Shown: one piece after another, positions 3,887-5,670 of the stretch
Position numbering within the stretch: position 1 is the first letter of the stretch
Layout of the letters: each line of letters begins with the position of its first letter
DNA from: Prauserella marina
GTDB taxonomy: Bacteria > Actinomycetota > Actinomycetes > Mycobacteriales > Pseudonocardiaceae
Assembly: GCF_002240355.1 (NCBI RefSeq)
Contig: NZ_CP016353.1
Location: forward strand, 1,414,501-1,478,500
DNA: 64,000 nucleotides
Direction of reading: 5' to 3'
Position numbers and translations under genes: made by a program
The notes under the pieces: model-generated
Seen by the model: only the letters and a program-made list of their open reading frames with translations
What the model was told of the DNA's origin: nothing
The model's database searches: none

Positions 3887-4897
3887 ATGACTGTGCAGTC
3901 GGTCACGGTGCTCGGTGCCGGTTCATGGGGCACGACATTCGCGAAGGTGCTCGCCGACGCGGGCAGGGACGTCACGATGTGGGCGCGCCGCCCCGAGGTG
4001 GCGGCCGAAATCCGTGAGGAGCACACCAACAACGGCTATCTGCCGGGAGTCGTTCTTCCCGGGCGGGTCACGGCGACCGACGACGCGGCGCTCGCGCTGG
4101 ACGGCGCGCAGGCCGTCGTGCTCGCGGTACCGAGTCAGAGCCTGCGGGCCAACCTCACCGCGTGGCGTTCGCTGTTGCCGCGCGAGGCGATACTGGTGAG
4201 CCTCGCGAAAGGGGTCGAACTCGGCACCCTCAAACGCATGAGCGAGGTCATCGGCGAGATCGCGGGTGTGCGATCCGACGACGTCGTCGTGGTGTCCGGC
4301 CCCAATCTCGCCAAGGAGATCGCGCGACAGCAGCCGGCGGCGGCGGTGTTCGCGTGCGCGGACCACGACAAGGCCGTCGCGGTGCAGCAGGCCAGTTTCA
4401 ACTCCTACTTCCGGCCCTACACCAACACCGACGTCGTCGGCTGCGAGCTCGGCGGGGCTTGCAAGAACGTGATCGCGCTGAGTTGTGGCATGGCGGCTGG
4501 GCTCGGCTTCGGTGCCAACACGATGGCGACGCTGATCACGCGCGGGCTCGCGGAAACCGCGCGGCTCGGCAGCAAACTCGGCGCCGACCCGTTGACGTTC
4601 GCCGGACTGGCCGGGGTCGGCGACCTCGTGGCGACGTGCGCGTCACCGCTGTCTCGCAACAGGACCTTCGGCGAACTGCTCGGCAGGGGCGAGACGGTCG
4701 CGATGGCCCAGCAGGCCGTCGGCGGTCAGGTCGCCGAAGGCGTCATGTCGTGTCAGTCCATCAGGGAACTCGCTCGCGGGGTCGGGGTCGACATGCCGAT
4801 CACGGACGCGATGTTCCGGGTGTGCCACGAAGGGATGAACCCGGCGCGCGTCGGCGCCGAACTGCTGGGGAGGCAGCAAAAGCACGAGTGGTCCTGA
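3887..4897 (+). CDS. gpsA: NAD(P)-dependent glycerol-3-phosphate dehydrogenase
   Basis: 336 residues from ATG at 3887, immediately after the plsC stop (TGAGATG). An upstream in-frame ATG at 3839 would lie inside plsC and adds a non-homologous tail. It reduces dihydroxyacetone phosphate to sn-glycerol-3-phosphate, the backbone of phospholipids. The Rossmann motif [10 protein letters not shown] (residues 9-18), the GPNLAKEIA block, catalytic-lysine segment [12 protein letters not shown] and [12 protein letters not shown] are all present. The gene order plsC-gpsA-(cdo)-ddl corresponds to gpsA-ddlA in mycobacteria. A stem-loop follows about 28 bp after the stop. Confidence 0.96.
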
Positions 4898-4925
4898 CCA
4901 GGCTGCCTTCCGGGTTCCGTCACGG

Positions 4926-4953
4926 GGATGCCCGCCGTCAGGCGGCGGCATCC
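4926..4953 (+). terminator. Probable gpsA terminator hairpin
   Basis: GGATGCC(4926-4932) pairs with GGCATCC(4947-4953) and CGCC(4933-4936) with GGCG(4941-4944), leaving a 2-nt bulge and a 4-nt loop. It sits just downstream of gpsA and before the leader-peptide region of cdo. There is no U-tract, which is common for actinobacterial terminators. Confidence 0.6.
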
Positions 4954-5020
4954 ACGGACTGGAATCGGTTTGACGGCGAGCGCCGCTGCTGGTTCGCTTG
5001 GCGGCGTGTTGACGCGATCC

Positions 5021-5104
5021 ATGACAGGGCGCCGGGGTGACTCCGACCTCCGGCGCGTCGTGCTCGCACCGTGTCCTTGTGGCCACTGCTGTCCGTGTCG
5101 GTGA
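5021..5104 (+). CDS. Cysteine-rich leader peptide (uORF) upstream of cdo
   Basis: A 27-codon ORF, ATG 5021 to TGA 5104, whose C-terminus reads APCPCGHCCPCR: five cysteines in nine residues. The middle (GRR..DLRRV) resembles the short actinobacterial cis-acting leader peptides found before sulfur-metabolism genes. Known polycysteine leader ORFs in mycobacteria act as cysteine-responsive attenuators: ribosomes stall at the Cys codons when cysteine is short. The next gene is cysteine dioxygenase, starting 65 bp after the stop, which fits this role. There is no obvious Shine-Dalgarno, so it may be leaderless. The regulatory role is inferred; the ORF and its composition are seen directly. Confidence 0.75.
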   Translation: MTGRRGDSDLRRVVLAPCPCGHCCPCR

Positions 5105-5169
5105 CAACGCCCGCACGCCTGTTTCCCTCGCTTCGCTTTCCCACTCAGCTCTTCAAGGACACCATTTCC

Positions 5170-5670
5170 ATGTTTGCCGTTCCCGAGAACACTGTCAGTA
5201 CCGCCGTGTCGCCGACCGCCGCGAATCCGCTGCTGCGCCACCCCGTGCGCACCGCGCTGGAGTTCGCGGCCGACAGGGAGCGCTGGCGCAACATCCTTCG
5301 CTACGACCCGGACGAGCGGTTCGCCTCGTTGCTCGAACGCACCGCCGACCAGGAGGTGTGGCTGCTGAGCTGGCTTCCCGGCCAGGAGGCGGAACCACAC
5401 GACCACGGTCTGACGACGGGCGCGTTCACCGTCGTGAGCGGTCAGCTCACCGAGACGGTGACCCGTAAGACCGTCGAAGGCAGGGTGCTGACTGAGGTGC
5501 ACACGCCCTCGGCCGGTCAGTCTCGCGTCTTCGGGCCGGGCTACGTGCACCAGGTACGCAACACCGGCCCCGATCCCGCGATCAGCGTGCACGTCTACCG
5601 GGCAGGCGGGCGCACCATCCGGCCCTACCGGTTGGATCCCGTCGAAGGCCCGCTTCCCGGCACGCCCTAG
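5170..5670 (+). CDS. Cysteine dioxygenase, type I
   Basis: 166 residues from ATG at 5170 (MFAVPENTVS); a longer frame back to 5071 would overlap the leader peptide. It oxidises L-cysteine to cysteine sulfinate with O2 and non-heme Fe(II). The cupin iron ligands are visible: H77 and H79 in EPHDHG and H127 in GYVHQVRN. It lacks the extended N-terminal part of mammalian CDO, as usual for bacterial forms. AAGGA lies about 11 nt upstream of the start. The last four bases (CTAG) are shared with the stop codon of the convergent PNPOx-family gene. Likely controlled by the upstream Cys-rich leader peptide. Confidence 0.9.
   Translation: MFAVPENTVSTAVSPTAANPLLRHPVRTALEFAADRERWRNILRYDPDERFASLLERTADQEVWLLSWLPGQEAEPHDHGLTTGAFTVVSGQLTETVTRKTVEGRVLTEVHTPSAGQSRVFGPGYVHQVRNTGPDPAISVHVYRAGGRTIRPYRLDPVEGPLPGTP

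Follow-up and report, generated by a model that had tools for sequence, protein, structure and literature searches.

A conserved cysteine-rich leader before a cysteine dioxygenase-family gene of Prauserella marina, a probable cysteine-responsive translational attenuator

A Cys-rich leader ahead of a dioxygenase gene

The locus lies in a 64-kb stretch (the whole of the DNA analysed, hereafter the window) of the approximately 7-Mb genome of Prauserella marina, and comprises a short Cys-rich open reading frame (ORF) followed by a gene of the cysteine dioxygenase (CDO_I) family, here called cdo; the gene next to cdo downstream lies on the other strand (Table 1). An earlier note on this DNA had reported a 27-codon leader, with five Cys in nine residues, 65 nt before cdo, and the sequence confirms it: the frame from ATG 5021 to TGA 5102–5104 encodes MTGRRGDSDLRRVVLAPCPCGHCCPCR (C-terminal end, APCPCGHCCPCR) and its stop is separated from the cdo ATG by that distance. 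The true start is probably GTG 5006 rather than ATG 5021, given that TTGACG begins 36 nt before it, the spacing seen most often in the called leaders of orthologues; the leader would then have 32 codons (MLTRSMTGRRGDSDLRRVVLAPCPCGHCCPCR) and ATG 5021 would be internal. The layout is promoter-like—TTGACG, 17 nt, TTCGCT, 7 nt, GTG 5006—and places +1 on the GTG, from which we infer a leaderless transcript with its 5′ end on that codon; the spacing fits such a transcript and recurs in orthologues. Of 563 short-ORF ends of the window, only that of the leader has five Cys within the final 12 codons (three further ends have four), and none of 28,819 short-ORF ends in 30 simulated Markov windows has five.

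A strict sigma-70 scan and a terminator scan of 4850–5230 returned neither promoter nor intrinsic terminator. The earlier note had allowed for a cdo promoter downstream of 5104; nothing sigma-70-like was found there up to 5230, in a scan that also misses the proposed leader promoter. An Rfam covariance-model search of 4800–5400 gave no match at E values up to 1. Between the upstream gene, which we take to be gpsA, and the leader promoter lies an inverted repeat without a T-run (GGATGCC...GGCATCC, 4926–4953) that may separate two transcripts.

Table 1 Features of the leader–cdo region, in window positions
Feature	Position	Strand	Basis
−35 hexamer TTGACG	4970..4975	+	spacing recurrent in orthologues
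−10-like hexamer TTCGCT	4993..4998	+	TTCGCT or a near match at the corresponding position of many orthologues (judged by eye, uncounted)
Probable leaderless leader ORF, 32 codons and stop, MLTRSMTGRRGDSDLRRVVLAPCPCGHCCPCR	5006..5104	+	promoter spacing, conservation, control runs
Anti-Shine–Dalgarno GTGTCCTTG over the Cys23-Pro24-Cys25 codons	5071..5079	+	exact 9-nt complement of 5154–5162
Cys codons	5072 TGT, 5078 TGT, 5087 TGC, 5090 TGT, 5096 TGT	+	sequence
cdo Shine–Dalgarno region CAAGGACAC, core AAGGA 5155–5159	5154..5162	+	complementarity, folding, covariation
Cysteine-dioxygenase (CDO_I) family gene, 166 aa	5170..5670	+	PF05995; alignment with 38 orthologues

Conservation of the leader

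We compared 90 orthologous loci, 30 from searches and 60 picked for genus spread, of which one (L038) came without upstream sequence. A leader-like ORF was present in 88 of the other 89, spanning 25 genus codes, and L051 had none; 85 of the leaders were called by a caller that favours Cys and three, miscalled at first, were identified by eye. At least two Cys occur in the last ten residues of 78 of the 88 (77 of the 85 called, and L070), the other ten having one. In a strict control requiring at least two Cys and an exact TTGAC, run with nearly the same caller, 68 of 89 real upstream regions qualified and none of 890 Markov or 89 antisense ones; with four of the five TTGAC letters sufficing, the counts were 75, 17 and 0, respectively. 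The best TTGAC-like hexamer lay 36 nt before the leader start in 56 of the 85 called leaders; spacings of 35, 37 and 34 nt accounted for 19, 9 and 1, respectively, and 70 of the 85 have an exact TTGAC 34–38 nt before the start. The peptide begins with MLT in 16 of the 85 (MLTR in 6 of those 16), and the gap from leader to cdo has a median of 54 nt and a minimum of 42 nt.

Outside the Cys codons the peptide is variable (pooled pN, 0.128; pS, 0.165) and selection at the peptide level is weak; the check proposed in the earlier note, for conserved Cys codons with variable flanks, was thus positive. Its link to the short leaders of actinobacterial sulfur genes also held, in that the orthologous leaders grade into a RRGHxDLRRVASALC type, as did the likeness that it drew to mycobacterial poly-Cys attenuators, a conserved Cys-rich leader standing before a CDO-family gene. 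Judged by sequence, the element is a real, conserved Cys-rich leader. It extends through most sampled genera of one bacterial family and part of its order.

Cys codons as a predicted anti-Shine–Dalgarno sequence

The stretch GTGTCCTTG, which covers the codons for Cys23, Pro24 and Cys25, is the exact reverse complement of CAAGGACAC at the cdo Shine–Dalgarno (SD) site, and partition-function folding of the window RNA gave an SD:Cys-tract pairing probability of 1.00. The probability exceeded 0.5 in 51 of the 85 leaders. When the SD was swapped for that of another genus, pairing was found in 14, 17, 17 and 24 of the 85 in four draws, and with shuffled tracts in 2–8. With each genus represented by a single locus (24 genus codes, from a set of 87 loci that includes two miscalled ones), the leader–SD duplex energy was −15.69 versus −13.62 for permuted pairs (sd 0.53), a value matched by 0 of 300 permutations; SD regions of other genera beat a leader's own SD in a mean of 37% (median, 27%). 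In an anchored helix of 48 leaders from 17 genus codes, the observed pairing was reached by 2 of 2,000 genus permutations, and by 4 of 2,000 with the variable positions alone; a covarying pair is G-C in 31 of these leaders and C-G in 7. Anchoring, on Cys-Pro and GGA, was impossible for 37 of the 85. Leader and SD covary between genera. These observations suggest a compact design in which the Cys codons are themselves the anti-SD, making sensor and lock one sequence that is maintained by covariation. Eight-codon leaders in three of 85 relatives (MFALCPCR or MFALCSCR in L036, L052 and L057; SD pairing 0.70, 0.64 and 0.99) may be natural minimal versions of the switch.

Pairing is not uniform across the sample: by folding of the 85 leaders, its mean was at most 0.5 in 7 of 23 genus codes, and in code g15, one of those of Amycolatopsis, it exceeded 0.5 in only 1 of 19 leaders. 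The g15 leaders (for example, L026, L032 and L042) retain their Cys codons (ACRCCR) and have no TCCT anti-SD. Of 298 Cys codons in the leaders 241 are TGT, compared with 26 of 115 for 34 long ORFs of the window, and the preference is kept in g15 (59 of 71). Base pairing alone therefore does not explain the TGT bias, given that SD pairing is nearly always absent there; slower decoding of TGT is a possible reason.

Predicted direction of the switch

We modelled a ribosome with an assumed footprint of −14 to +13 relative to the A-site codon. In the window, the probability that the SD is unpaired was 0.00 in free RNA, 0.44 with the ribosome on Cys23, 25, 28 or 29, 0.01 on Cys31 and 0.00 at the stop codon. 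Counting changes of 0.2 or more across the 85 leaders, SD opening rose with a stall on the first Cys in 33 and fell in none, and with a ribosome at the stop it rose in 29 and fell in 1; among the 51 paired leaders, the SD was opened by the stop ribosome in 29 and by the first-Cys stall in 30. Stall exceeded stop by 0.2 in five leaders and stop exceeded stall in seven, so a clean separation of the two seems limited to the window and a few other leaders. As ribosomes at the stop and at the first Cys open the SD with nearly equal frequency in orthologues, the direction elsewhere would rest on a longer ribosome dwell on hungry Cys codons. On balance, the model predicts that scarce Cys-tRNA should turn cdo on, because the Cys codons themselves mask its SD. 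This would be the direction of biosynthetic operons, contrary to the expectation from the annotation, and, physiologically, a shortage of cysteine is a strange inducer for a CDO.

Proposed mechanism and alternatives

Sequence and computation provide the leader, its promoter spacing, conservation, complementarity and covariation, and the predicted SD opening; leader translation, stalling, and the sign and magnitude of the cellular effect are what we infer from them. We consider it probable, on this model, that the element is a cysteine-responsive translational attenuator that is on when cysteine is scarce. Transcription would begin on GTG 5006, and ribosomes would start on the leader right at the 5′ terminus of the mRNA. 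With plentiful Cys-tRNA, the ribosome would clear the Cys codons and depart, leaving the Cys-Pro-Cys codons to pair with the cdo SD and keeping cdo translation low. With scarce Cys-tRNA, it would stall on the first Cys codons and cover the anti-SD, thereby freeing the SD so that the dioxygenase is made.

A different use of the same stall would be polarity or Rho-dependent termination, with the halted ribosome exposing RNA to Rho or hiding it and SD pairing being secondary. The lack of an intrinsic terminator in the scanned region and the g15 leaders, which hold their Cys codons with almost no SD pairing, both fit this reading; Rho control alone would not be expected to produce leader–SD covariation across genera, and we regard it as rather unlikely. 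The earlier note had proposed the opposite polarity, in which ribosomes run through the Cys codons when cysteine is ample, allowing cdo to be expressed. This logic suits the usual metabolic role of cysteine dioxygenase, and in the 29 leaders opened by a stop ribosome frequent passage could in principle hold the SD open. In the window, however, the SD is closed with the ribosome at the last Cys or the stop and opened at the first four Cys, and among the 85 leaders the first-Cys stall never lowers the opening by the threshold amount; with the SD masked by the Cys codons themselves, the prediction is reversed and the proposed polarity is unlikely.

Two simpler readings concern the frame itself. 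Leader translation might merely supply ribosomes to cdo by coupling or reinitiation, and leader-gene reinitiation has been suggested in Actinobacteria, most often across 10–11 bp (PMC4833913). The gaps in our leaders, here and in the orthologues, are far from that, and coupling leaves both the conserved Cys codons and the SD covariation unexplained, making it highly improbable. A Cys-rich frame might also arise by chance and have no function, given that spurious short ORFs abound in high-G+C genomes and that the window holds three other ends with four Cys; against a leader found in all but one of 89 loci, at a preferred promoter spacing, and a strict criterion that none of the Markov upstream regions passed, this is hardly credible.

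Other leaders in this genome and beyond

The genome encodes three CDO_I genes. The second (L193, C1:2976408) stands before a rhodanese-domain gene and has its own Cys-containing leader, MFRVFHGWRDRTVDLLLVASCGCRRA, of a type present in 21 of 25 same-family loci (L193–L217; absent in L194, L195 and L217, and with a frame that runs on in L202). Like the window leader, it is a Cys-containing short ORF before a CDO-family gene with covarying leader–SD complementarity: the duplex energy of CDO–rhodanese loci was −18.09 for own pairs versus −16.35 for permuted pairs (sd 0.60; 7 of 2,000 permutations; 17 of 27 loci parsed). It differs in that most of the anti-SD falls within the DLLLV codons, which precede the Cys codons, and in that folding lends no support to opening by a stall: SD:leader pairing exceeded 0.5 in only 6 of 17 loci. 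A stall-opened SD at these leaders was considered and rejected, opening going up in 1 of 17 and down in 2 of 17, and we claim no polarity for them. The third gene (L001, C1:4074613) encodes a close relative (214 bits) of the 8qfl protein, which is listed as a cysteine dioxygenase and which we take to be an ergothioneine dioxygenase; the latter phrase had no match among openly licensed paper listings. No Cys leader was seen upstream of L001, which directly follows an ORF without a Pfam match.

Searching the same genome with the leader-peptide profile NF042934 gave 13 matches, none above the cut-off and 11 of them in frames of 199–752 aa. The two best matches, both in short frames, were L100, before a gene that is presumably nirA-like, and L101, before a membrane-protein-like ORF and a rhodanese-domain protein. 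At L100, the SD pairs with Val-Ser codons upstream of the single Cys (SD open 0.17 free and 0.12 with a ribosome there); at L101, which scored 27.1 bits against the Ms5788A model (cut-off, 45), the SD is mostly bound up in a local helix, and of the three Cys codons only the last, when occupied by a ribosome, opens it (0.23 free, 0.58 then). The same model thus predicts no clear switch at these two sulfur-gene leaders.

Of 25 loci from outside the family, 10 have no Cys-containing leader, including all six of family code f15, and 15 carry one, of the types SRR..FD..CC, ECCR, RRS.VDLLR.ASALCPG and DR..DLLRV..AC; these leaders, like the CDO–rhodanese ones, were recognized by eye, with a pattern check afterwards. 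In family code f8, three CDO-family genes (L229, L230 and L231) are preceded by short ORFs ending in ECCR plus one or two residues, and L229 and L231 have AGGAG before the Cys codons, at the place of the anti-SD in other leaders.

The dioxygenase and its possible role

The product of cdo belongs to the CDO_I family (PF05995, 52.4 bits against a cut-off of 23). Its closest relatives among named records are from Prauserella, Qaidamihabitans and Amycolatopsis, and among solved structures it comes closest to the 8qfl group and the Bacillus subtilis CDO. Residues H77, D78, H79 and H141 are invariant in 39 aligned sequences. The position equivalent to the carboxylate-binding arginine of mammalian CDO, which we take to be Arg60 of the rat enzyme, appears from an extended alignment not to be Arg: it holds Ala, Ser or other residues, with an invariant R50 a few residues earlier, and the alignment with the B. 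subtilis enzyme starts just past the site, which makes this a weak indication.

If the predicted direction is right, the enzymes may serve to recover sulfur and not to remove cysteine; otherwise the wiring is paradoxical. A broader and more speculative proposal, which we put forward tentatively as a possibility, is that actinobacterial 'cysteine dioxygenases' belong to a leader-run cysteine-starvation regulon and are not disposal enzymes but thiol dioxygenases acting on other thiols, such as mercapto-acids, persulfides or ergothioneine-like compounds, whose sulfur they would make available for cysteine synthesis; at least two CDO lineages would then carry separate Cys leaders with the anti-SD in the coding sequence. 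The clash between predicted polarity and annotation offers a direct test of the role of the enzyme.

Comparison with known leaders

The window peptide had no match to NCBIfam models NF042933, NF042934 or NF042936 at E values up to 10, its only NCBIfam match being a sub-threshold one to a cytidine deaminase model. Among four orthologue peptides compared with NF042934 (cis_reg_atten, 'putative leader peptide'), the leaders of the distant cdo orthologues L093 and L094 (RRGHIDLRRVASALC type) just pass, with 27.6 and 27.8 bits against a cut-off of 27, and the other two gave 11.1 bits and no match. On sequence grounds the window leader resembles a divergent member of the NF042934-like group, although its peptide has no leader-profile match itself. 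In the mycobacterial attenuators of Canestrari et al. 2020, a ribosome stalled on the Cys tract reportedly unmasks the downstream ribosome-binding site and turns expression on when cysteine is scarce; for the window the same is predicted by computation only, with pairing in 51 of 85 leaders.

No title or abstract opening among the openly licensed papers surveyed mentioned a leader peptide before a cysteine dioxygenase. Excerpts of papers that cite Canestrari et al. 2020 speak of cysteine biosynthetic genes under translation attenuation (PMC13236596), of cysteine-dependent elongation (PMC9031893) and of six conserved Cys-rich ORFs (PMC9094748). The excerpted text of Shell et al. 2015 names cysA2/Msmeg_5788, Rv0485/Msmeg_0932 and nirA/Msmeg_4527, with no dioxygenase among them (PMC4633059). 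A Streptomyces lividans leader before metNIQ, described in the excerpted source as Met-dependent, ends in ARCMCRRMCAF, with three Cys (PMC8079986), and may sense cysteine instead.

The mycobacterial Ms5788A, Ms4527A and Msmeg_0932 leaders are leaderless short ORFs with C-terminal Cys codons ahead of a sulfur gene; the window leader likewise has C-terminal Cys codons before such a gene, and a promoter spacing that would fit a leaderless start. Their Cys cluster near the end of the ORF is also found here, and 78 of the 88 leaders have two or more Cys among their final ten residues. In contrast to the mycobacterial leaders, which precede biosynthetic or sulfurtransferase operons, the window leader precedes a CDO-family dioxygenase; its peptide also matches none of the NCBIfam models built for those leaders. 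It would extend poly-Cys attenuation from such operons to a family annotated as cysteine-degrading.
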